Assembly (NCBI GenBank): GCA_031259095.1
Contig: JAIRLW010000432.1
Span: 1-14,526, forward strand
Origin: Planctomycetaceae bacterium
GTDB taxonomy: Bacteria > Planctomycetota > Planctomycetia > Pirellulales > Thermoguttaceae
Direction: 5' to 3'
DNA length: 14,526 nucleotides
Part shown: piece by piece, positions 2,041 through 14,526 of the stretch
How the letters are laid out: the number at the start of each line of letters is the position of its first letter
Numbering within the stretch: position 1 is the stretch's first letter
Notes under the pieces: generated by a model
What the model saw: only the letters and a program-made list of their open reading frames with translations
The model's database searches: none
Told to the model about the DNA's origin: nothing
Position numbers and translations under genes: made by a program

Positions 2041-4101
2041 ATGTCCGGCAAATTTGAAACATTAGAGAAAATCGGTAAAACACCGTTTGGTATCCGTTAT
2101 CGCGGTTACGATGTGGAACTGCATACCGAAGTCGCCATTCTGGAACTTGCAGATCAATATCGAAATAATAAAGACTACGCCGCCGACATTTGGAATACGG
2201 TTTCAAAAATAAGTAATCTGAAACACGATTATCTTGTTCAGGTACTCGGAGTCGATAAACCGCAAGGTTGGATTATTACGGAAATGCGCGGAATCAGTCT
2301 TGCGGATACTGTTGCAAAACAAGCATTGCCGCAAAATGTTGTCCGAACCGTCATTCGCGATGTTCTCGACGTGATAAGTTTTTTTGAAAAACGTAACATG
2401 GTTCACGGCGATATTCGTCCGGAAATGCTTCTGTTACCGTATATCTCCGAAAATAAAACTCTCGAACAACTTCGCGCGAAACTTGGTTTTTCACTTGGCG
2501 TTTTTCTTTGCGGTGAAGTTCTTCAAGCCGGCAGGGATTTTAAATATGTTGCGCCGGAAATGATTATGCCGCAACTCGGTAAAATCGGTACGCCGACTGA
2601 TTTTTACGCGTTGGCTTTTACGGCGTTGGAATTACTGGTCGGACCTAAATTTGATTCCTTCTTTTTGCAGGACACTTTAAGTTCGCAGACAACAGCGTGG
2701 TCAATGATTCATACCAGCGACGAATTTCAGTTTCCGCCGTTACGAGAAATGGTTCCCAATTTAGCGGATGATTTATTCAATGTATTGAACGCCGCTCTTA
2801 AACGTAACGTTGAAAACCGGCCGCAGACTTCCGGTGAAGTGCTTGCTATGTTGGACAACACGAAAGCCGAAGCAATTCCTGTTGCGATAATAAAAAGTAT
2901 TGCCGTCGAAACAGAATTTATACCGACGAAACATCAGGAACGGCAAACGATAAAAAGAGAATCAACAATAACGTTACAACAACAGCCGTATAAACAAACT
3001 CAAAAAACGACACAAAAATCAACATCACAACCGACAAAACAATCCGCAGGAATAAAATATTGGAACAAAGAAAAAGTTAAAAAATGGATCAAAGAAAAAG
3101 CGAATGATCCTGTCTATTATTGGACATTTATCGTTGTTGTCGTTGCAATTTTCGGAATGATTGCCTTAACACTGAAACCATTGATCAATCCTGAAAAGAA
3201 AATATCGGAAAAGAATAATCAATCTATTACGGAAAAATTAGAGAAGGAAAGATTAGAGAAAGAAAGATTAGAGAAGGAAAAATTAGAGAAGGAAAAATTA
3301 GAGAAGGAAAAATTAGAGAAGGAAAGATTAGAGAAGGAAAGATTAGAGAAAGAAAGATTAGAGAAAGAAAGATTAGAGAAGGAAAGATTAGAGAAAGAAA
3401 GATTAGAGAAAGAAAAATTAGAGAAAGAAAAATTAGAGAAGGAAAGATTAGAGATTCTTGAGAAGTTTATTTATATTCCGTACAAGAATATCGGCAAAAT
3501 CGGTGCGGAAAGTATTCCTAAAACATGGGAGGAACTCGAAAAGTCGCAGGAGGAATTTTATCTTTCCGGTAACGAAAAAATAGAAGATAACGATATAACA
3601 TCATTACAAGGATTGCAAAAACTTGTTGCGCTTAATCTTGGAGTTTCTGTAAAACTGACCGATCAAGGTTTGGAATATCTCAAAAATCAAATCCAACTTC
3701 GCGAACTGGAGTTAAATTCAGGCAATCTGACCGACGGCGGATTGACGGCGTTAAGCGGATTAACGTTGTTACAAAGACTTTCATTAAACGGATGCAAACA
3801 AATCGGAGACAATGGAATAAAACATCTTGCCGGTTTAACAAGTTTGACTTACTTTAATTTGCCCGGCAGTAAAATTACCGATCAATCGCTGGAAATACTC
3901 GGTAAGATAAATTCATTACAAGAATTATTGCTCTGGAAATCGGAAGCGTTGACCGATGACGGTTTGACGCATCTCGAATCGTTACAAAATCTTGAATTGC
4001 TTAATATCAGAGATTGTCCCAAATTGACGGAAGAATCGGTTACGAAATTAAAAGGAAAATTACCGAAATGTAAAATTATTTTCAGAAACGGAGATAATTG
4101 A
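2041..4101 (+). CDS. Membrane pseudokinase with LEKER/LEKEK repeats and leucine-rich repeats
   Basis: This 686-residue protein has four parts. Residues 1-270 have a Ser/Thr protein-kinase fold, but the catalytic signature is broken. The glycine loop is IGKTPFG, the VAIK lysine is replaced (VAIL, 31-34), HRD is HGD (122-124) followed by IRPEM, and DFG is replaced by GFSLG (149-153). APE (171-173), DFYALAF (187-193) and the late NRP arginine (R260) remain. A K/Q/T-rich linker leads to one membrane helix (about 361-380), preceded by basic residues that favour a cytoplasmic N-terminus. Residues 400-469 are 14 units of LEKE[R/K]. Residues 470-686 carry about five or six leucine-rich repeats of the L..L.L..C/N..ItD.GL.. 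kind. There is no clear Shine-Dalgarno sequence. Its stop overlaps the TadA start, implying coupled translation and a shared role. Function is inferred: a non-catalytic scaffold or sensor. Confidence 0.92.
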   Translation: MSGKFETLEKIGKTPFGIRYRGYDVELHTEVAILELADQYRNNKDYAADIWNTVSKISNLKHDYLVQVLGVDKPQGWIITEMRGISLADTVAKQALPQNVVRTVIRDVLDVISFFEKRNMVHGDIRPEMLLLPYISENKTLEQLRAKLGFSLGVFLCGEVLQAGRDFKYVAPEMIMPQLGKIGTPTDFYALAFTALELLVGPKFDSFFLQDTLSSQTTAWSMIHTSDEFQFPPLREMVPNLADDLFNVLNAALKRNVENRPQTSGEVLAMLDNTKAEAIPVAIIKSIAVETEFIPTKHQERQTIKRESTITLQQQPYKQTQKTTQKSTSQPTKQSAGIKYWNKEKVKKWIKEKANDPVYYWTFIVVVVAIFGMIALTLKPLINPEKKISEKNNQSITEKLEKERLEKERLEKEKLEKEKLEKEKLEKERLEKERLEKERLEKERLEKERLEKERLEKEKLEKEKLEKERLEILEKFIYIPYKNIGKIGAESIPKTWEELEKSQEEFYLSGNEKIEDNDITSLQGLQKLVALNLGVSVKLTDQGLEYLKNQIQLRELELNSGNLTDGGLTALSGLTLLQRLSLNGCKQIGDNGIKHLAGLTSLTYFNLPGSKITDQSLEILGKINSLQELLLWKSEALTDDGLTHLESLQNLELLNIRDCPKLTEESVTKLKGKLPKCKIIFRNGDN
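3238..3447 (+). repeat. 14 tandem 15-bp units encoding LEKE[R/K]
   Basis: Each unit reads TTA GAG AAR GAA ARA, and only the two purine positions vary. The array encodes 70 residues of alternating acidic and basic side chains, with E-K/R pairs at i,i+3 and i,i+4. This is the pattern of ER/K single alpha-helices, which stay rigid as monomers. At helix geometry it would span about 10 nm (inference). The near-identity of units suggests copy number can change by slippage while staying in frame. Confidence 0.95.
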
Positions 4102-5228
4102 GTACAAATAATATGGACATAAAAGAACTTTACACACAATCGACACGGTATTTTTTGGCGCCGGTTTTACCGCTGCTGGACGATTCCGATATTTCCGAAG
4201 TGCTGATTAACGGTACGGAAAATATTTATTACGAAAAATCGGGCAGGCTGCACCGTTCAGAACACACTTTTCCGTCGGAACATTTACTCCGTGCAGCGGC
4301 AACAAATATTGCGGAATACAGTAACCGCCGTATCGGAGGAAAGAATCATAGTGTTGATGCACGTTTGCCGGACGGTTCACGGGTTCACATTATTGTTCCG
4401 CCAAGTTCAAAAACAGGAATTTGCATTTCGATTCGTAAATTTAAGAAATCGACATTTAATCTTGAATCGTTAATTCAATGGGAAAGTCTTTCATCGGTTG
4501 CAGCGGAATTTCTTCGGATTGCAATTTTATTGCACAAAAATATTGTTATTTCAGGAGGAACCGGTACGGGAAAAACCAGTCTCCTGAACGCACTTTCCAG
4601 TACTATTCCCGAAGATGAACGTGTTATTGTGATTGAAGACAGTTCTGAATTACAGTTACATCAACCTCACACGGTTTATTTGGAAGCCCAACCACCGCAA
4701 CCGGACGGAACAGGTCAGGTAACAATCCGCGATCTCTTTGTCGATTCACTCCGTATGCGTCCGGACAGAATTGTTATCGGCGAGGTCAGACGCGGCGAAG
4801 CGTTAGATTTAATTCAGTCCATGATTTCGGGACATTCCGGTTCCATGACCACCGTTCATGCCAATACGCCGCGTGATGCTGCTGTTCGTTTGGAAACATT
4901 GTCGTTGATGAGTGATGTTTCGTTGCCGATTTATGTTGCGCGGGCGCAAGTTGCTTCCGCAATTCATCTGATCATTCAGATTGAACGTTTTGCCGATGGT
5001 TCACGAAAAACAACGCATATTACTGAAGGGCTTGGTTTGGATGAAAAAAACAATTATCAGTTTCATGATATTTTTCGTTTTGTTCATCAGGGTTGGGAAA
5101 GCGGCGGGAAAATCAAAGGAACTCTCGCTCCAACCGGTTATAAACCCTCCTTCGCGTCGGAACCGTATTTTTTCGGACTTGATGACAAAATTATTGAAAC
5201 AAAGGAGGTTTTTCAAAAAGAAATTTAA
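4098..5228 (+). CDS. tadA: Tad/type II secretion traffic ATPase TadA (CpaF family)
   Basis: This is the hexameric ATPase that powers assembly of Tad (Flp) pili or the related secretion machine at the cytoplasmic face of the inner membrane. The chain has 376 residues from the TTG at 4098. Residues 20-110 form the N-terminal domain (ISEVLINGTENIYYE). Walker A is GGTGTGKT (153-160), followed by VIEDSSELQL (acidic box), LRMRPDRIVIGEVRRGEA with the Walker B glutamate (E229), and the His-box GHSGSMTTVHANTP (245-258). All motifs are intact, and LRMRPDRIVIGEVR is typical of the CpaF branch. The TTG overlaps the upstream TGA and has GGAG four bases before it. The alternative ATG at 4113 would remove five residues but has no ribosome-binding site. 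Translational coupling to the pseudokinase is likely. TadB follows 31 bp later. Confidence 0.96.
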   Translation: MSTNNMDIKELYTQSTRYFLAPVLPLLDDSDISEVLINGTENIYYEKSGRLHRSEHTFPSEHLLRAAATNIAEYSNRRIGGKNHSVDARLPDGSRVHIIVPPSSKTGICISIRKFKKSTFNLESLIQWESLSSVAAEFLRIAILLHKNIVISGGTGTGKTSLLNALSSTIPEDERVIVIEDSSELQLHQPHTVYLEAQPPQPDGTGQVTIRDLFVDSLRMRPDRIVIGEVRRGEALDLIQSMISGHSGSMTTVHANTPRDAAVRLETLSLMSDVSLPIYVARAQVASAIHLIIQIERFADGSRKTTHITEGLGLDEKNNYQFHDIFRFVHQGWESGGKIKGTLAPTGYKPSFASEPYFFGLDDKIIETKEVFQKEI

Positions 5229-5259
5229 TAACAAAAAATATCTTTAAGGATTGATAATA

Positions 5260-6102
5260 ATGTATATTATATTAAGTACAATTATATTTGGCGTTGCCGG
5301 TTTTTGCCTTGCGCGTCCGTTGGTTGCTCTTTGGGATGCGATTGCGTCCTCTTACATTGAGGATTTGAAAGCAACCTGTTTCGGGTTACAATTAGGAACC
5401 GAAGGGCAGTTTCAATTTTGTTTACGGTGCTGGCTCGGCGCGTTGGCAACCGTTATTGTTGTTGTCGGTTTTATTTTCAAGATGTGGATATTTATGATTC
5501 CTTGCCTGTATATCATTTTTATTTCACCGCGAATAATTATCGCAATTTTAATCCGGCGAAGGAAAATTTTGTTACGTGACCAGTTGGTAACGGCGCTTTC
5601 TGTTGTTACAAATTCTGTTCGTGCCGGAGTGGCTTTGGAAGAAGCCATTCACTCTGTCGGCGAAGCGGACTTAAAACCGCTTGCTCTGGAATTTCAACGA
5701 ATTTACCGTGAATATACGGGAAATAAACCATTCGTTCAGACTCTTGAAGACGCTAAAGAACGTCTTAAATTGCCGAGTTTTGCTATTTTTGTTGCGGCTT
5801 TAGCCACCAATAAAAAACGCGGCGGGAAAATCACGGCAACCTTAGAACAATTACGTTACAGTTTATTGGAAAACCAACGCCTTGAACGAAAACTGGAAGC
5901 GGATACCGCAGGCGGTCAATCACAAATACATATATTATCGCTTGCCCCTATCGGATTTATCGGATTCTCTTATTTCGTTACACCGGAAGGAACCGCATTA
6001 TTGTTCACAACAATTCCGGGTCAGATTGTTCTGACGGTTGTTACACTTTTAGTTTATTTTGCCTACCGTTTAGGCGAAAAAATTACAACAATTGAATTTT
6101 GA
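5260..6102 (+). CDS. tadB: Tad platform protein TadB (type II secretion F family)
   Basis: One of two related inner-membrane platform proteins that work with TadA in Tad pilus assembly. The product has 280 residues. It has an N-terminal hydrophobic segment (3-24), a hydrophobic pair (about 60-98) followed by the basic stretch IRRRKILLRDQL, a cytoplasmic helical F domain (about 103-225) with RAGVALEEAI and the TNKKRGGKITATLEQL segment, then two C-terminal membrane helices (225-242 and 246-269). RGGKI/TLEQL is typical of TadB. I chose ATG 5260 because AAGGA ends nine bases before it; the in-frame TTG at 5251 abuts that site directly and would only add three residues. It is 31 bp after tadA and 37 bp before tadC, clearly one operon. 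Confidence 0.92.
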   Translation: MYIILSTIIFGVAGFCLARPLVALWDAIASSYIEDLKATCFGLQLGTEGQFQFCLRCWLGALATVIVVVGFIFKMWIFMIPCLYIIFISPRIIIAILIRRRKILLRDQLVTALSVVTNSVRAGVALEEAIHSVGEADLKPLALEFQRIYREYTGNKPFVQTLEDAKERLKLPSFAIFVAALATNKKRGGKITATLEQLRYSLLENQRLERKLEADTAGGQSQIHILSLAPIGFIGFSYFVTPEGTALLFTTIPGQIVLTVVTLLVYFAYRLGEKITTIEF

Positions 6103-6139
6103 ACTAATATTTTATATTTTATATTTTGAGGAGGTTATC

Positions 6140-7102
6140 ATGTTTTTTGCAGAAACAATATTGTCGGAACAACTTCATGAGTTTTTTAAGACCGGTCTTT
6201 TAGCGGGCGGGACGATTACGTTTTTCTTTTCTATCATTTTTGCCGGTATTGCGTTAGCCCGTATTTTTTCGCAACCCCAAAAACGGTTGAAACAATATAT
6301 TATGGAAGAAGATCGGCTCACGATTCTTCGTCGGGAAAACACGACGTTTCGTATTGCGGAACCTTTTATTCGTGATTTAATTGCCGCCGCTTGGAATAAA
6401 AATCGGATAAAACTCAATCTTATCGCCGAACAATTGACGCTGTTACATACGGCAATTCCCTGGAAACCGGAAGAATTTGTTGCGGTAAAGCAAGCCGAAT
6501 CAATTTTATCGGGTGTGATTGCGGGAATGGTCTTTTGGAATTTCGGAAATCCTGTTGCGGGAATAATTATCGGATTCATCGTCGGATTATGTTACTATTT
6601 GGTCATGATGTCGGACTTGAAAGATCGTTACAAAAAACGGTTACATGAATTACGTACAAGACTGCCGTTTGTTGTGGACTTGATGGCATTGACACGAGGA
6701 GCGGGCGCTTCCTTTACGGAAAGTCTGGAATCTGCGGCACAGGAAAATAAAGGACATCCGATCAGTGATGAACTCAATCGTGTGATTATGCAGTTGAATC
6801 ACGGAGTAACGCAACAAAAATCACTCGAAGATTTAGCGGAACGGGTACGCCTTGACGAATTTAATGAAGTTGTTTTTGCGATCAACAAGGCGGATGAATT
6901 GGGAACGCCGATTGCGTTTGCGCTTTCCGAACTGGCGGGTCAAATGCGTTTGAGACGGCAACAGTTGGGAGAAAAAGCGTCGGAAGAAGCCGAAACGAAA
7001 TTGACGGGACCGGTGATGCTTATTGTTGTTGCGTGTATGATTATTGCGGTTGCTCCTTTTTTGTTACCTGTATTTTTGGGAGGCGGTCCCGGAATTTTTT
7101 AA
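6140..7102 (+). CDS. tadC: Tad platform protein TadC (type II secretion F family)
   Basis: Second platform protein of the Tad machine, 320 residues. It has a membrane helix at 18-41, a hydrophobic pair at 122-157, then an F domain starting at LRTRLPFVVDLMALTRGAGASFTES and including FNEVVFAINKADELGTP (241-257), a TadC hallmark. A final helix at 290-311 follows the conserved run of charged residues QMRLRRQQLGEKASEEAE. The start is set by a strong GAGGAGG six bases upstream of ATG 6140. An in-frame TTG at 6092 would extend the protein by 16 residues into tadB but has no support. The hydrophobic C-terminus ends GGGPGIF. It is the last gene of the recognisable tadABC set. Confidence 0.94.
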   Translation: MFFAETILSEQLHEFFKTGLLAGGTITFFFSIIFAGIALARIFSQPQKRLKQYIMEEDRLTILRRENTTFRIAEPFIRDLIAAAWNKNRIKLNLIAEQLTLLHTAIPWKPEEFVAVKQAESILSGVIAGMVFWNFGNPVAGIIIGFIVGLCYYLVMMSDLKDRYKKRLHELRTRLPFVVDLMALTRGAGASFTESLESAAQENKGHPISDELNRVIMQLNHGVTQQKSLEDLAERVRLDEFNEVVFAINKADELGTPIAFALSELAGQMRLRRQQLGEKASEEAETKLTGPVMLIVVACMIIAVAPFLLPVFLGGGPGIF

Positions 7103-7143: not shown

Positions 7144-8037
7144 ATGCCAGCCTGGATTCATATTACAAAAGGTACTGTACCGGAAAATCTGTTTGATATT
7201 GTTTCATCATTCAGTAAAGTCGGCGGCGATTTGGATGGAAATATTTGTATTCCGTTGGAAAATATTCCGCCGTGCGCTTTTATTCTCGAATATAATGCGA
7301 CGCAACAAATTTATTACATTATTCCGAGAAGCGATCATGTTTTACGTTACGAAGGTGCGCCGTTAAATCGCGGAGCGAAAACGGAATGGATACCGGGAAC
7401 GATTTTAGAAATTGCGGACGAATTGGAACTTGAGTTGGAGGTCGATGAAAATCCCGAACCGGTTGCCGCTTTGACTATTGTAGAACGGCGGTCACAAGAA
7501 ATAGAACAATCGGAAGCGGAAGAACAGTCCGGCGAATTAAATGATAACGCCAATATTGCGAAGGGGAAATCAGAATCCGCTGTTTCTGTTTCACCTATTT
7601 ATCTTATTATTTTCGTTGCCGTTTTATCCGCATTAATATTGCCGTTCTTTTCCAAACCATCACGAGGTACGCCGCCGTTTAATCCAACGAAAAAAGACAG
7701 CGAATCCGTAAAAAATATATTCCTGAATGAAATCAAAGAAAATCCGTTACAGGCTGAGTATGAATTATGGTTTCAATGGTTTAAAGAAGCAATTATTGAA
7801 GAAAATCACAGCAATTACAAAAATGCAAGTAAAAATTATAAGAAAATCCGCGATAATATTTATGATTACTGGAAAAGAACGGGGCAGTCCGAAAAGATTC
7901 AAAAAATCGTTCAGGCACAGGAAAAGGAGGAATCGGATGATGAAAATGAAAATAATGCGGACGATTTAGAAAGAATTTGCGATTTTACCGTTAAAAAAAT
8001 AAAATACCTTCAATGGCGTCTTGAAGCGGAAAAATAA
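7144..8037 (+). CDS. Single-pass membrane protein, possibly FHA-like N-terminus, helical C-terminus
   Basis: This 297-residue protein is not confidently assigned. Residues 1-105 look like a compact beta-rich domain (CAFILEYN, IYYIIPR, HVLRYEG, NRGAKTEW, GTILEIADELELEL). That strand order with a late G-x-I-L-x-I turn resembles a degenerate FHA domain, and FHA proteins often accompany tad genes, but the usual G-R...S..N.H residues are not evident. Residues 106-148 are an acidic linker, 151-169 a membrane helix, and 195-297 a charged helical region with TPR-like character (NYKNASKNYKKIRDNIYDYW). The start is ATG 7144. The open frame extends upstream into tadC, but that part encodes nothing plausible, and the 41-bp gap lacks both a Shine-Dalgarno sequence and a terminator. 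Its position directly after tadC suggests the same operon. A cytoplasmic adaptor for the Tad platform is a guess. Confidence 0.85.
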   Translation: MPAWIHITKGTVPENLFDIVSSFSKVGGDLDGNICIPLENIPPCAFILEYNATQQIYYIIPRSDHVLRYEGAPLNRGAKTEWIPGTILEIADELELELEVDENPEPVAALTIVERRSQEIEQSEAEEQSGELNDNANIAKGKSESAVSVSPIYLIIFVAVLSALILPFFSKPSRGTPPFNPTKKDSESVKNIFLNEIKENPLQAEYELWFQWFKEAIIEENHSNYKNASKNYKKIRDNIYDYWKRTGQSEKIQKIVQAQEKEESDDENENNADDLERICDFTVKKIKYLQWRLEAEK

Positions 8038-8084: not shown

Positions 8085-10436
8085 ATGAGAACTTGTTTTT
8101 TGGCGATGTTGCTGTTTATTGTTGCGGGAATTTCTTCCGCAGATCAAACGGCAACAAAAAATAGTCATGAGGAAATGTTTACAGAATTTGATCTTTCGGG
8201 ATCGTTGATACCGCTCATTGCCGACAGGCAAAGCAGTATTGATATTCTTGAAACATTGCCGAAATCCGCAACACCTTGGAGCGGATATTCCTGGTCAATA
8301 AAACAAAACGGATTGCAGTTTCCGTTAAATGTTTACGACTGTTACGATAAAGGTAAAACTGCCGCCGATTGGGAAAAGAAAAACCGTCTTAGTCCGAAAT
8401 CCTATAATTCCGCATGGGCGGCGTCCGCTCTTTTGGAAAAGGAACCATCGGGAAATTCCGATGCGCTCAAATCGCTTCGCAAAGGACTTTTGGCGGGAAT
8501 TTACGATTCCGGTGAAATTAAAATCATTGCCGGAAAAACGGACGAATATTCGAAAAAATTTCAATGTACTCCGAAAGAATTATGGTCGGCGTTACAAAAT
8601 TATTTTGTCCGCTCCAAACATTCGGTTATTCTTTGTTTTGACGGCGAGGAACAAGACCAAAATATTCCTGTTTTTGCGTTTCGAATTACTTGCACGCCGG
8701 AGTCGCCGGAGTCAAAAAAACACCTTTGTTTAATGACACTTCTCGGCGTTGATGCAAATTCATCGCGTGATGACCACAAATTAAATGTACGGAAAGAAAC
8801 GATTCAATTTGTGTGCGATATCAATGACGAAGGTATGATCGACGATGACGGGCAATGGAAAAAGGTTGGAAATTCAGTGATTCCATCATACGCGTGGATT
8901 CCTCTATCTTCCGGCGATATTCCTATTCGTAACGAACAACTGGATAAAGTTAAAGTCAGAAATTTACTCAATCTGCAAGATAACGAAATTCAGGAATTTT
9001 TAGTTGCGAAATTGCCGGAGAACCCTGAACAGCCGATAATTGATACGAATATTCCCGAATTGACGGCGTCTCCGAACTCTCCAAAGCCGGAAACGCCCAA
9101 ACCGGAAATAACAAAGGAAATTCCGGTACAAAAACCGGTTTATTTGAGTATTGACGAGATGTTGTATCTCATGTCGAACAAACATTCCGATTTCTCTTTC
9201 AATGCGTCTATTAAAGGCGGTGATGGTTCTGTACGGACGACAGGCGAAAAATTCAAAGTGTTTGTTGAAAGCGCGAAGCCCGGATTTTTGTACATTGTTG
9301 CCGTTAATAACAGCAACGATATTTCGATGATTTATCCGGTTCGCGGCGAGAACAATTTTATCGCGGGAAATAAAACCGTAACAGCATTGCCGAAAGACGA
9401 CCGCTTTTTTCAGTTTTCAAAAAATTTCCCTGCCGGCGCTGTACGATTAAAAGTTTTTCTGACCGGAGTTCCAATTCACATTTCCGGTGCGGATGATATT
9501 AAAATTCTTGATCGGCGGCAATTGTCCGAGCAATCACTTCAGGAGGAAGGAATTGATACGGAAAACCTTTTTGGGGTGATGATCACGGAAGACGGTAATG
9601 AAATGCAGCCGATGTGCTGGCTAACAAGACGTCTCCGTATGGCAAGACAACAGCGAAGATCTGTAAGAAATAGTGTTAAAGAATTTCCTGAATCCGGCGA
9701 GATAACTCCGCCGGAGATTGAGGAGGATCCGTCGGATGATGAGGAAAATCCAGATGACGTAAAACTTGTTACGCCATCGGACGAACCAAAACAGGATGAC
9801 GTAAAACCTGTTACGCCGTCGGACGAACCGAAACAGGATGACGTAAAACCTGTTACGCCGTCGGACGAACCGAAACAGGATGACATAAAACCTGTTACGC
9901 CGTCGGACGAATCGAAACAGGATGACGTAAAACCTGTTACGCCATCGGACGAACCAAAACAGGATGACGTAAAACCTGTTACGCCATCAGACGAACCGAA
10001 ACAGGAACCAGCGCCGGTAAAAAAACCGGTTGGTGAAAATCCTTTCAAACCGGAACCGTCTGAAGTTACAGGAAAAGAACCGGTTACAAAACCAGGCGAA
10101 GTAAAACCAGAGATGGAACCGCTACCGGAGATTGTCAAAATTCCTGTTACACCGACAATTATTAAAAAGAAATCAATACTTGACGACAATCCTTTTATTG
10201 AAATAATCGGTAAAAAACCGGACAAAATAAAAGAGACGCCGGATATTTCCGATTCGCAATTTAATAAAGTTGCGATAAATAATTCTGCTGCGGAAACGGA
10301 ACAGACAACGCCAACCGTTCAAACCCGAAAAATACATTATTCCGATATTATCAATCGGAATGCCCGTGAGTTATTCAAGGGGTTTGCTCAGGATGAAGTG
10401 TTGATTATTTTTTCCGATAATAATTCGATTCAATAA
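8085..10436 (+). CDS. Large secreted protein with DUF4384-like domain and DDVKPVTPSDEPKQ repeats
   Basis: The 783-residue product is exported through a signal peptide with probable cleavage at SSA|DQ (after residue 19). Residues 60-275 form a folded domain. Its PWSGYSW, SAWAASALLE and CTPKELWSALQNYF order is reminiscent of papain-fold transglutaminase-elicitor proteins, but there is no Cys at the expected nucleophile site, so this is only suggestive. After a proline-rich linker (310-350), residues about 388-465 resemble DUF4384 (KVFVESAKPGFLYIVAV, then MIYPVRGENNFIAG, then FPAGAVRLKVFLTG). Residues 557-640 are six 14-residue repeats, followed by a P/E/K-rich tail rich in ENPFKPEP- and DDNPFIEI-like segments. 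The C-terminus (ARELFKGFAQDEVLIIFSDN) looks like a short closing domain. Start fixed by AAAGGAG. It lies 47 bp after the membrane protein gene and may be in the same transcript. Its function is not known. Confidence 0.9.
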   Translation: MRTCFLAMLLFIVAGISSADQTATKNSHEEMFTEFDLSGSLIPLIADRQSSIDILETLPKSATPWSGYSWSIKQNGLQFPLNVYDCYDKGKTAADWEKKNRLSPKSYNSAWAASALLEKEPSGNSDALKSLRKGLLAGIYDSGEIKIIAGKTDEYSKKFQCTPKELWSALQNYFVRSKHSVILCFDGEEQDQNIPVFAFRITCTPESPESKKHLCLMTLLGVDANSSRDDHKLNVRKETIQFVCDINDEGMIDDDGQWKKVGNSVIPSYAWIPLSSGDIPIRNEQLDKVKVRNLLNLQDNEIQEFLVAKLPENPEQPIIDTNIPELTASPNSPKPETPKPEITKEIPVQKPVYLSIDEMLYLMSNKHSDFSFNASIKGGDGSVRTTGEKFKVFVESAKPGFLYIVAVNNSNDISMIYPVRGENNFIAGNKTVTALPKDDRFFQFSKNFPAGAVRLKVFLTGVPIHISGADDIKILDRRQLSEQSLQEEGIDTENLFGVMITEDGNEMQPMCWLTRRLRMARQQRRSVRNSVKEFPESGEITPPEIEEDPSDDEENPDDVKLVTPSDEPKQDDVKPVTPSDEPKQDDVKPVTPSDEPKQDDIKPVTPSDESKQDDVKPVTPSDEPKQDDVKPVTPSDEPKQEPAPVKKPVGENPFKPEPSEVTGKEPVTKPGEVKPEMEPLPEIVKIPVTPTIIKKKSILDDNPFIEIIGKKPDKIKETPDISDSQFNKVAINNSAAETEQTTPTVQTRKIHYSDIINRNARELFKGFAQDEVLIIFSDNNSIQ
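9753..10004 (+). repeat. Six tandem 42-bp units (DDVKPVTPSDEPKQ)
   Basis: Six in-frame units of 14 residues occur back to back. Differences are few: L for P in the first unit, DDIK and ESKQ in the fourth, plus synonymous CCA/CCG and similar third-base changes. The units are acidic and proline-containing and probably extended, as in periplasmic or surface spacers. The near-identity of units indicates recent expansion by slippage or recombination. Confidence 0.97.
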
Positions 10437-10633: not shown

Positions 10634-12112
10634 ATGAAAACAAAAATTTCAACACAGGTTATTTCCTTTCTTTTGTACGTGATGATTACCGTATGTTTTC
10701 TGTCCGTACAAATATTAGCGCAGGAACCGGAGTTTCGTAAAAAGGGATTTATTCCCAAAGAAAACGGAACCGGTGCGTCAATAAAACCGTTACATTCCAA
10801 TTTTCAGGTTGGTTTATCGGTTGACAAATCCAATCACCTTTACTATGAAGGTGAAACAATTTCCTTCACGCTGGAATCGAGCGTTGATGGTTATTACTAT
10901 CTGATCAATTTGCAGCCGAAAATGGAAAATGGAGAACAAAATTTTATTGTTCTTTCTCCGACGAAGAATTTTCCGGTCAATGAGATCAAAGCCGGTAAAC
11001 CGATTACGGTTCCGTTACAGGATGAAGACCGTACTATTGAGGCGCAGGCTCCTTTCGGTAAAGACACGATTGTACTTATTGTTTCCAAAAAACCTCTTAA
11101 ACCGCAGGTTTTCGGTCTTGATCATTTTGAACCGAAATTATCAACGATTGAAGCATTTAATAAGGGTTTTGGGGCGTTGGAGGCGTTGGAAGGAAGCGGT
11201 TTTTGGGATTCCGACCGAGTTGAAATAACAACGTTACCGAAAAACAGTACCGATAAACCGAAACAAGGTAAATTCGGTTTGTTTATTGCCGTCGGAAAAT
11301 ATCAGATACCGGGTTTGAGTCCTTTACCGTCTTTACAAAATATTGAAATAGTTACAAAAACATTTCAACAACTAGGATATGACGGCAATAGTGTTATAAC
11401 ATTAGTTGATGAAAACGCAACGCTTGCGAATATCAAAAAGGCGTTTGCTCAATTGTATGAATCGACTGACGCCGGTGATGAAGTTGTTATTTATTGGTTT
11501 GGACACGGTGACCGAATGGCGGCAACCGAAGCAGCCGATTCGCCGGACGGTGAACGGGGTTATCTCATACCTTACGATTCTAAAGAACGGAGTCCTGATT
11601 CAGGACTTTTTGATCCGGAAACACTAATCAGCGATCTGGAATTCGGTAACATGATTAAGGAAATCAAAAACCGTAAAGTTCTGGTCATTATTGACGCTTG
11701 TTTTTCCGGTACATTTATTGATCCGGCGTCTCAGGAAAAAAAGGACACAAACAGTCAAGTTGCAACAGAAAATGCGGAAGAAAAACCGTTTTTTGATTTC
11801 AAAACGAGTCTTGACGCATTTAGAACAAAATCAATTAGTCAAAAAGATGCTGTTGCAATAACCGCCTCGGCGCGTGACGAAAAAGCGTGGGCGGTAAAGG
11901 ATAAGTTTTCCATTGCAACAATGTTGTTATGTAAACACCTTATACGGTTGGAAGATTCCGCGTCGGTTTATGATATTTTTCAGGCAATGAAAGATGATGT
12001 ACTAAAATTCATTGCAGAACAACAGGAAAAAAATCCGTCATTTACTATTCAGACTCCATTGATTCAAGGGAATGCGGAACAATTCCTGTTGAAAAAAGTT
12101 AAAAAAATGTAG
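10634..12112 (+). CDS. Secreted caspase-fold protease (peptidase C14) with N-terminal DUF4384-like domain
   Basis: This 492-residue protein is probably a cysteine peptidase acting outside the cytoplasm. The signal peptide (hydrophobic 9-27) is probably cut at ILA|QE after residue 29. Residues 58-152 resemble DUF4384 (FQVGLSVD, YEGETISFTLESSVDGYYYLIN, FIVLSPTKNFPVNEIKAGK, then FGKDTIVLIVSKKPL). The caspase p20-like part begins at GKFGLFIAVGKYQ (212). The catalytic His is in WFGHGD (H291), and the catalytic Cys is in VIIDACFSGT (C356), preceded by D354, the usual S1-pocket acidic residue. After a 40-residue linker comes a p10-like part with AITASARDEKAWA (408-420). Both catalytic residues are intact, as in bacterial orthocaspases. 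The ATG has no Shine-Dalgarno sequence. A 197-bp gap with a hairpin precedes it, so it may have its own promoter. The target is unknown. Confidence 0.93.
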   Translation: MKTKISTQVISFLLYVMITVCFLSVQILAQEPEFRKKGFIPKENGTGASIKPLHSNFQVGLSVDKSNHLYYEGETISFTLESSVDGYYYLINLQPKMENGEQNFIVLSPTKNFPVNEIKAGKPITVPLQDEDRTIEAQAPFGKDTIVLIVSKKPLKPQVFGLDHFEPKLSTIEAFNKGFGALEALEGSGFWDSDRVEITTLPKNSTDKPKQGKFGLFIAVGKYQIPGLSPLPSLQNIEIVTKTFQQLGYDGNSVITLVDENATLANIKKAFAQLYESTDAGDEVVIYWFGHGDRMAATEAADSPDGERGYLIPYDSKERSPDSGLFDPETLISDLEFGNMIKEIKNRKVLVIIDACFSGTFIDPASQEKKDTNSQVATENAEEKPFFDFKTSLDAFRTKSISQKDAVAITASARDEKAWAVKDKFSIATMLLCKHLIRLEDSASVYDIFQAMKDDVLKFIAEQQEKNPSFTIQTPLIQGNAEQFLLKKVKKM

Positions 12113-12727: not shown

Positions 12728-14526
12728 ATGAAAACCAACTTATTATTTTTTGTAAGCATTAGTTTACTTTTGCTTGTGAGTAACGCTGTCGGTGCGGAAT
12801 CACGAACTTGGACGGCAAAAAGCGGGCATGAAATTACCGGTGAATTGATAACGGTCAACGATGGCACTGTCCAGATTGCTCTTGCCGATGGTAAAACGGT
12901 TAAAGTTAAGATAGAACAACTCTCGGACAATGATCAAAACTTCATTAAATCTCAAAACAAAAAACAAAATGCAAATCCTTTTGAGGTTATAGATCATCCT
13001 GTTTCTAGTGAAAAAAATAATTCCGTTCAATTCGATTGGAAAACACCGCTTGACATTCTGAAAACCGAAGCTGAAAAAGACAATCCCGATGCTATACTGG
13101 AATTAGCTTTGAGATATATGGAAGGACGTGATGGTTGTCAAACCGACCATTCAAAAGCATCAGGATTGTTTCAAAAAGGAGCGAAACATGCCGATAAAAA
13201 TTCGCCAGCCGGTCAAACTTGTAAAGGTCTTTTTTATTGGCAAGTTTCTTGGAATGAACCTAGCGTTACAAAAAACAAAAATGAGGCGATTAGATTATTA
13301 CAAAAAGAGGCGGAACAAGGATTTGCTGTTGCACAATTCGCGCTTGGTTTATATTACCGTTACCTTGACAGTGACGAAGACACAGAAAAAGAAGAGACAA
13401 AAGAAGCATTCAAGTGGTTTCGTAAAGCGGCAGAACAGGGACATGTTGGCGCCCAATGCAATCTTGCCCGATGTTATTTGAACGGGTGGGGTGTTGACGA
13501 AGATTATGCGAAAACATTTGAGTGGTTTCGTAAGGCAGCAGAACAGGGATATGCCCAAGCACAATTTGATGTTGGTTATTGTTTTAAAGAAGGTTGGGGT
13601 GTTGCCAAGAATGATATTGAGTCAGTCAAGTGGTACCGCAAAGCGGCAGAACAAGGAAATAGTGAAGCCCAAAAATATCTTGGTAATTGTTATGCAAAAG
13701 GTATCGGTGTTGATAAAGACGATGCGGAAGCGTTTAAATGGTTTCGCAAAAATTATGAACAATCACCTTCTGATTCTGTAGCAATTACTATTGGTGATTG
13801 TTATGTAAACGGCGGTAACGGAATTAACAAAGATTATGAGGAAGCAATCAAATGGTATCGCCAAGCGGCAGACAAGGGCGATGTCGAAGCACAATACAAA
13901 ATTGGTATTTGTTATTCAACCGGAGGTTTTGGCATTCACAAGAATTATACGGAAGCAATCAAGCGGTTTCGTAACACGACAGCCAAACAAGGTCTAATGC
14001 TTACGACTACGTATCCATACCGTATTGGTTCTCTCTATGAACTGGGAATTTGTTACTCAAATGGAATAGGTGTTACTAAAGATATTACAGAAGCAGCCAA
14101 GTTGTTTCGTAAGATGATAGAGTTAGAAAAAGAAAGATCACAATTTTCCGTTAAAGAATTTGCGTACAGAAATGATAGTAATGTTCACAAAGATTATCGT
14201 AAAGTCACTCAATGGTTGCGTAAAGCAGCAGACCAGGGAAATGCTGACGCTCAATATGGTTACGGTTGGTGCCTTGCCAATGGGAACGGTACTTCCCATG
14301 ATAAACAAGCAGCAGTCGAATCGTTTCGGCAAGCGGCAAAACAAGGTGATGTTATTGCCGTCGTTGAAATTGGTGATTGTTATTCAACCGGAGGTTTCGG
14401 TATTCTCCAAAATTGCGCGGAAGCCGTCAAATGGTACCGCGAGGCTGCCAACAAGGGAAACGCTGAAGCAGAATACAAACTTGGTATTTGTTACTTAAAC
14501 GGTAACGGTGTTGATAAAGATATAAC
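12728..14526 (+). CDS. Secreted SHD1-domain protein with Sel1 repeats (3' end outside the window)
   Basis: The frame stays open from ATG 12728 to the window edge (599 codons and counting), so the gene is truncated only by the window. TAGGA lies seven bases upstream of the start. A signal peptide (MKTNLLFF..., cleavage probably VGA|ES after residue 23) is followed by an SHD1 (SLA1 homology 1) domain at 26-75: RTWTAKSGHEITGELITV, then DGKTVKVKIEQLSDNDQNFIK. This small beta-barrel is widespread in exported planctomycete proteins. From about residue 111 on there are at least eleven Sel1-like repeats (about 36-38 residues, consensus EAxKWYRKAAEQGxAxAQxx, then LGxCYxxGxGV). Sel1 repeats form helical solenoids that bind partner proteins. 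One unit (about residues 440-500) is longer and irregular. The repeat island upstream separates it from the caspase gene, so it is probably a separate transcript. Confidence 0.93.
   Translation, partial: MKTNLLFFVSISLLLLVSNAVGAESRTWTAKSGHEITGELITVNDGTVQIALADGKTVKVKIEQLSDNDQNFIKSQNKKQNANPFEVIDHPVSSEKNNSVQFDWKTPLDILKTEAEKDNPDAILELALRYMEGRDGCQTDHSKASGLFQKGAKHADKNSPAGQTCKGLFYWQVSWNEPSVTKNKNEAIRLLQKEAEQGFAVAQFALGLYYRYLDSDEDTEKEETKEAFKWFRKAAEQGHVGAQCNLARCYLNGWGVDEDYAKTFEWFRKAAEQGYAQAQFDVGYCFKEGWGVAKNDIESVKWYRKAAEQGNSEAQKYLGNCYAKGIGVDKDDAEAFKWFRKNYEQSPSDSVAITIGDCYVNGGNGINKDYEEAIKWYRQAADKGDVEAQYKIGICYSTGGFGIHKNYTEAIKRFRNTTAKQGLMLTTTYPYRIGSLYELGICYSNGIGVTKDITEAAKLFRKMIELEKERSQFSVKEFAYRNDSNVHKDYRKVTQWLRKAADQGNADAQYGYGWCLANGNGTSHDKQAAVESFRQAAKQGDVIAVVEIGDCYSTGGFGILQNCAEAVKWYREAANKGNAEAEYKLGICYLNGNGVDKDI

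Follow-up and report, generated by a model that had tools for sequence, protein, structure and literature searches.

We describe here a membrane pseudokinase gene of a planctomycete and its place in a Tad machine. The gene lies on a 14,526-nucleotide stretch of DNA (the window) that constitutes one whole contig (C401) of a metagenome-assembled genome (MAG) that is 78% complete and 5.1% contaminated. It stands directly before the gene for TadA, which is followed by genes for TadB, TadC, an FHA-like membrane protein (FHAL), a DUF4384 protein, and a caspase-fold protein that also carries DUF4384 (Table 1), and the window thus contains the core of a Tad machine, a TadA ATPase together with TadB/TadC platform proteins. 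The original prediction of a membrane pseudokinase ahead of a Tad ATPase is upheld by a match to the Pkinase profile (PF00069, 52.7 bits against a cut-off of 31.7), by the transmembrane (TM) helix, and by the three Tad genes directly after it. Contamination of the MAG was set aside as an explanation, since the gene content and gene order of the window recur in two genomes of the same genus (G104 and G111), up to the ends of their contigs.

The pseudokinase and its gene

The above-threshold Pkinase match and the bilobal fold identify the protein as having a Hanks-type (eukaryotic-like) kinase fold, and by structure comparison its kinase domain has complete lobes that match STE20-type kinases and PknB. 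The residues of an active Ser/Thr kinase are largely missing: the VAIK lysine is replaced by Leu and the alpha-C Glu by Thr, the catalytic-loop Asn is replaced by Met while the Asp is kept, and there is no DFG. Read from the sequence, the informative losses are those of Lys, the alpha-C Glu, Asn, and DFG. The earlier claims that the VAIK lysine and DFG were lost and that APE and the C-lobe motifs were kept are borne out by the VAIL and LGFSLG motifs. The Arg of HRD had also been counted as lost and the window does read HGD, but this carries little meaning because 38 of 40 motif-intact relatives read HGD as well (L181 reads HSD and L211 reads HRD). The lysine-rich flank on the N-terminal side of the TM helix suggests that the kinase domain is cytoplasmic. 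In a close homologue (P0003) the LEKER/LEKEK repeat is swapped for other sequence, and leucine-rich repeat (LRR) families are precomputed for both P0003 and P0004.

The pseudokinase stop codon overlaps a TTG at 4098, and this overlap is real, but the translational coupling that was read from it is unsupported, since the overlap is not conserved in sister loci, where the pseudokinase and tadA frames are spaced by ~330 bp (L112), ~250 bp (L113), and ~90 bp (L126). The in-frame ATG at 4113 gives MDIKELYTQS, and the sister proteins start MDTKELYTQS (L113), MDTKDIYTQS (L126), and MKTKEIYTQS (L112). One shared pseudokinase-tadA transcript is plausible. In two of the sisters the gap between the genes (L112:2461-2789, L113:3664-3911) is filled, by eye, with repeated and palindrome-like short sequences, which are absent in the window.

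Table 1. Coordinates of features in the window
Feature	Position	Strand	Basis
686-residue membrane pseudokinase with a kinase fold, a TM helix, a charged repeat and LRRs	2041..4101	+	profile matches, hydropathy
Kinase-fold domain, residues 1-275	2041..2865	+	
Leu34 replacing VAIK lysine (VAIK to VAIL)	2140..2142	+	
Catalytic loop HGDIRPEM (HRDxKPxN position): Asp retained, Asn to Met	2404..2427	+	
FSLG at DFG position (context LGFSLG); DFG absent	2488..2499	+	
TM helix, residues 364-382, single strongly hydrophobic helix	3130..3186	+	hydropathy
15-bp tandem repeat, ~15 copies, encoding LEKER/LEKEK	3231..3454	+	
LRRs, predicted extracytoplasmic	3640..4080	+	Pfam LRR matches under curated cut-offs
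TadA1: short TadA/CpaF-type ATPase, no FHA; ATG 4113 favoured over TTG 4098	4113..5228	+	
TadB-type platform protein	5251..6102	+	T2SSF 45.2 bits, over cut-off
TadC-type platform protein, start unsettled	6092..7102	+	T2SSF 52.8 bits, over cut-off
FHAL, 297-residue membrane protein: residues 1-105 FHA-like, TM 152-170, helical C-terminal part	7144..8037	+	predicted structure, hydropathy
DUF4384 protein, signal-like N-terminus	8085..10436	+	
Caspase-fold protein with DUF4384, signal-like N-terminus, His (GHG) / Cys (DAC) dyad motifs present	10634..12112	+	
Open Sel1-repeat gene, signal-like N-terminus, running off contig end	12728..14526		

The kinase family and the state of the TadA2 FHA domain

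The window protein scores 119 bits against a gene in another genome (G024) that lies downstream of tadC, compared with 19-22 bits for three general kinases encoded in its own genome. The product of the G024 gene has 1121 residues and intact VAIK, HGDIKPSN, and DFG motifs, together with a TM helix and, by eye, a caspase-like C-terminal part; the gene comes after those for TadA2, TadB, TadC, and a zinc-ribbon protein. The TadA2 of this cluster has an N-terminal FHA domain (PF00498, 40.9 bits), a layout that Pfam sees in L071, L072, L119, and L120.

A profile of the pseudokinases (A2) was used in scans that at the order and phylum levels scored at most 6 candidates per genome. With E 1e-20 as the limit, it picks out members in 44 of the 119 genomes of the family; with E 1e-30, members are present in 66 of the 396 genomes of the order and in 17 of the 392 genomes of the phylum (family genomes included). 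At E 1e-34 or better there is a member in 38 of the 119 family genomes, including all 33 of those with a TadA2 of at least 460 bits; the remaining five are G102 and G104, in which TadA1 is present, and G037, G065, and G098. Within the window genus the four genomes (out of 21) with this tadA are exactly the four with the pseudokinase, and all three sister loci have it directly before tadA, such that the linkage to Tad that the original prediction had set as a check is confirmed. A fifth match in the genus (G103, 1.8e-21) scores like a general kinase.

We read 68 kinase loci, after L187 and L188 were dropped as lying on the same contigs as L114 and L118, and all catalytic motifs are intact in 40. 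Two of those scored as pseudokinases by the mechanical rule may be live: L174, whose one change is Lys to Arg, and L204, which lacks its N-terminus. Of the 68, the low-scoring L207, L208, and L211 (108-115 bits) may fall outside the family. A TadA is encoded within the stretch in 45 loci, TadA1 being the nearest in 16 and TadA2 in 29. All 16 kinases nearest to TadA1 are pseudokinases, and 25 of the 29 nearest to TadA2 are intact, the other four being pseudokinases of one genus (L172, L184, L185, and L186). Because TadA1 is also found upstream of two live-kinase clusters (L060 and L132, both in G007), TadA1 alone is no marker of the dead kind. The position of the pseudokinase gene varies: it is just upstream of tadA1 in the window genus and downstream of tadC in genus g20. 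In eight further loci (L048, L114, L120, L173, L190, L200, L205, and L206) the pseudokinase and tadA1 genes occupy opposite strands, with a frame spacing of 68-214 bp in seven and ~1,960 bp in L048. The live and dead kinds occur together in one MAG (L119 and L120). In a 48-row kinase tree the pseudokinases (23 rows, support 100/95), the live Tad kinases (16 rows, 100/98), and other kinases (9 rows, 99/98) form three branches, with the root unsettled and thus with no fixed choice of which two are sisters. We also note that in L048, besides the divergent pseudokinase, the gene immediately preceding tadA1 (L048:5657-7984, G015) encodes a double kinase-domain protein, one domain live-looking and the other not, and that some Tad clusters (L060, L128-L130) have two TadA-type ATPases, a short TadA1 and a long TadA2.

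In the cases where both are legible, the state of the kinase is matched by that of the FHA domain on TadA2. In live-kinase loci this domain reads IGR...VSRRHA or near; all 24 retain both the Arg and the Ser, and the His position is occupied by His in 22 and Gln in 2. Both Arg and Ser are kept in none of 13 dead-kinase cases; in 12 of these the Ser is replaced by Ala, Pro, or Asp, and L206 retains the Ser and loses the Arg. Left out of these counts are the TadA2 fragments of L173 and L193 and any locus whose stretch lacks a TadA2. The G015 gene, which was read twice as L048 and L073, is counted a single time, and the window is represented by the TadA2 on contig C151 of the same genome, in which the Ser is Ala, with the same reading (VAEFAA) in a near-copy in G111. 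Pfam recognises the FHA in this TadA2 (30.2 bits) and in that of L120 (26.3), both of the dead kind. The family of the window gene is one of Tad-linked receptor kinases, the commoner branch of which is catalytically intact and lies after tadC, with a phosphothreonine-type FHA on TadA2. That the FHA looks dead in the cases where the kinase is dead points to a switch based on phosphorylation having turned into a fixed docking joint. The live-kinase sister system, the state of the TadA2 FHA, and the FHA-fold protein FHAL go beyond the original prediction.

A proposed docking role and its alternatives

The closest functional parallel is in the type VIIb secretion system (T7SSb). The pseudokinase domain of YukC copurifies with the FHA region of the ATPase YukB, and the two also make contact in E. 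coli, which to the authors' knowledge has no typical kinase of this sort; the phosphate residues of the YukB FHA are unconserved, and YukC showed no ATP binding in vitro (PMC9600267). In S. aureus, FHA2 of EssC recruits EssB (PMC9436818). The window protein shares with YukC/EssB a cytoplasmic pseudokinase, one TM helix, and an extracytoplasmic domain, its own topology being derived from hydropathy only, and the likeness to the YukB/EssC ATPase, with its unconserved FHA phosphate residues, lies by gene content only in a degenerate FHA partner (PMC9600267, PMC9436818). Unlike in T7SSb, the kinase lobes are complete, the machine consists of TadA, TadB, and TadC, the outer part is made of LRRs, and there is no YukC match by Pfam in the window at E 0.001. 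The Pfam matches of the eight window proteins scanned (kinase/LRR, T2SSE, T2SSF, DUF4384, and caspase) include neither an FtsK-type ATPase nor a WXG100 protein. EssB/YukC are not among the Foldseek or VIA matches listed, which is uninformative either way.

Because the parts match the T7SSb plan in how they are laid out and in the condition of the two partners, we propose that the window gene probably encodes part of a phospho-independent pseudokinase-FHA docking hub that would work like YukC-YukB without belonging to that family, and that the protein is probably a conserved, non-catalytic membrane subunit of the planctomycete Tad machine. In this branch the residues for ATP and Mg are gone from the kinase, and the TadA2 FHA has lost its phosphate-binding Ser or Arg. 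The pseudokinase domain would dock in the cytoplasm, with no phosphorylation, on the FHA-fold domain of TadA2, of FHAL, or of both; docking would tie the ATPases to the TadB/TadC platform, and the docked pseudokinase could pass on a signal from the extracytoplasmic LRR domain.

Several observations weigh against this docking hub. There is no TadA2 on the window contig, and the partner would be the C151 TadA2 or FHAL; the FHAL model was built on five sequences with a mean pLDDT of 68.9, and a single Foldseek match of it passes E 0.001. The Pfam FHA score of the G015 TadA2 is just under the cut-off (20.5 against 20.7), and Pfam finds no FHA in the TadA2 of three dead-kinase loci (L128-L130). At 13 of the 68 loci, including those of pseudokinases L115 and L116, no Tad gene is found in the stretch, some of these stretches ending at contig ends. 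In a TadA2 tree from which the FHA part was excluded, the 24 live-kind rows form one clade (100/100) with the 13 others outside, so that the kinase/FHA match counts for little more than a single observation, nearly one old event followed by varied substitutions and not many independent ones. Some of these points would fit a pseudokinase that acts as a scaffold holding TadA1, TadB, or TadC directly, with no FHA role, the FHA loss in TadA2 being an unrelated trait of the same old Tad lineage. The kinase/FHA match is one deep split, an FHA is no longer seen by Pfam in L128-L130, and the pseudokinase gene adjoins tadA1, and not tadA2, in the window genus and the divergent pairs. However, a protein modelled as an FHA fold is still encoded beside the pseudokinase, and in the live-kinase sister system the ATPase that goes with the kinase bears an FHA of the phosphate type, and we consider such a direct scaffold unlikely.

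The retained HGD Asp means that some catalytic activity may persist in the window protein, and an unconventional enzyme (with ATP binding or another transfer reaction) would be consistent with its presence in eight of nine database homologues as well. These nine, P0004-P0012, include the kinase domain and match at E 1e-38 or better; they were taken from 23 database proteins listed. Of the others, P0003 is a fragment lacking the catalytic motifs, P0013-P0020 are short matches (7-13% of the query), and P0021-P0024 are weak, P0021 retaining VAIK, HRD, and DFG. Such an enzyme would have to work without the Lys, alpha-C Glu, Asn, and DFG, and HGD has become HGN in L126, L129, and P0004, which makes it quite improbable. 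Simple decay to a non-functional or nearly non-functional kinase is hardly credible. The catalytic motifs are gone and the linker and repeat between kinase and LRRs vary freely (22-45% identity to two sisters), but the kinase domain is 91-92% identical, with a dN/dS of 0.07, lower than that of TadA, on which ground decay was rejected, and all nine homologues share Leu for Lys and lack DFG. The original prediction had held that intact copies in sister genomes would mark this one as decaying; intact relatives do exist (the 40 loci), but the argument does not apply because the 16 live Tad kinases group apart in the kinase tree, and the members of the window clade have their substitutions in common and evolve under strong purifying selection.

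Returning to the docking hub, we can tentatively see two Tad kinds in planctomycetes: a phospho-Tad, in which a live receptor kinase would act with a phosphothreonine-reading TadA2 FHA, and a lock-Tad, in which both halves would have lost their chemistry and kept their fold, making the same contact with no phosphate. This division is possible, with the balance slightly against it. If true, it would be a second independent arrival at a T7SSb-type pseudokinase-FHA hub, with the live-kinase relative still extant, even within one MAG. The presence of live kinase with phosphate-type FHA and dead kinase with dead FHA in sister Tad machines makes the step from switch to joint testable by comparison.

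The type VI secretion system has a phosphorylation switch, PpkA-Fha, in which a kinase and an FHA protein together gate the machine. It resembles the role proposed for the intact planctomycete branch, in a different machine; a phosphothreonine case, Fha-TssL, is cited in PMC9436818. TraF of the pIP501 Gram-positive type IV secretion system is a transmembrane pseudokinase subunit that its authors liken to YukC (PMC13037476). It is like the window protein in being a transmembrane pseudokinase of a secretion machine, but the machine is different, and none of the Tra proteins of the plasmid was found by the authors to have an FHA fold (PMC13037476). FHA-bearing CpaF proteins constitute class III (PMC12019362), and the planctomycete TadA2 is similar in its N-terminal FHA, where Pfam sees one. 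The text of the class III paper uses the word kinase a single time, in the name pyruvate kinase (PMC12019362), whereas in planctomycetes a kinase gene accompanies the ATPase and in one lineage both are dead. The Kil system of Myxococcus xanthus, a Tad-like machine, has several FHA proteins and an ATPase fused to an FHA, and is like the planctomycete Tad in having the FHA on the ATPase; it differs in that the word kinase appears nowhere in the paper's main text (PMC8460266). A pseudokinase-FHA joint in T7SSb, and FHA domains on the class III CpaF and Kil ATPases, are thus already known. In the literature searched, with most subscription journals outside coverage, we found no paper describing a planctomycete Tad kinase or pseudokinase-FHA pairing, and no regulatory kinase named for FHA-bearing Tad/CpaF ATPases, for which the live Tad kinase is a candidate.

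Neighbouring genes and the rest of the machine

TadA1 matches T2SSE with 169.6 bits, over the cut-off, and its best NCBIfam match is TIGR03819 (TadA family) at 265 bits, under that family's own cut-off of 373. FHAL is modelled as an FHA fold in which the phosphate-binding Arg and Ser are absent. Common descent of its L117 relative with the L071 zinc-ribbon protein is not claimed, the match being of only 35 residues and 29 bits.

Contig C151 (L072) of the same genome encodes TadG-like (43 bits), TadE-like (29 bits), and weakly CpaB-like (18 bits) proteins and, near the contig end, TadA2 (550 bits), together with genes judged pilin-like and peptidase-like by eye. No secretin was identified, and the 826 bp left after TadA2 on the G111 contig contain no TadB match. 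Because C151 and the window contig both end in Sel1-repeat genes, the two may be neighbours.

The DUF4384 protein also adjoins the cluster in L113 and L126, and in the window it includes a 42-bp tandem repeat (six copies, 9753-10006) encoding DDVKPVTPSDEPKQ. The caspase-DUF4384 protein is likewise beside the Tad genes in L113 and L126, and the dyad motifs are found in all three separate caspases of the window kind. Many live Tad kinases (L071:13102-16467 and relatives) have a caspase-like C-terminal part in which the dyads are mostly broken. We considered a clean swap, in which a live kinase would go with a dead caspase and a dead kinase with a live one, but abandoned the idea, since the caspase-like parts fused to live kinases are mixed, with the His retained in many and the Cys in a few. 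The short open reading frames listed within 12728-14526 sit in frames other than that of the Sel1-repeat gene.
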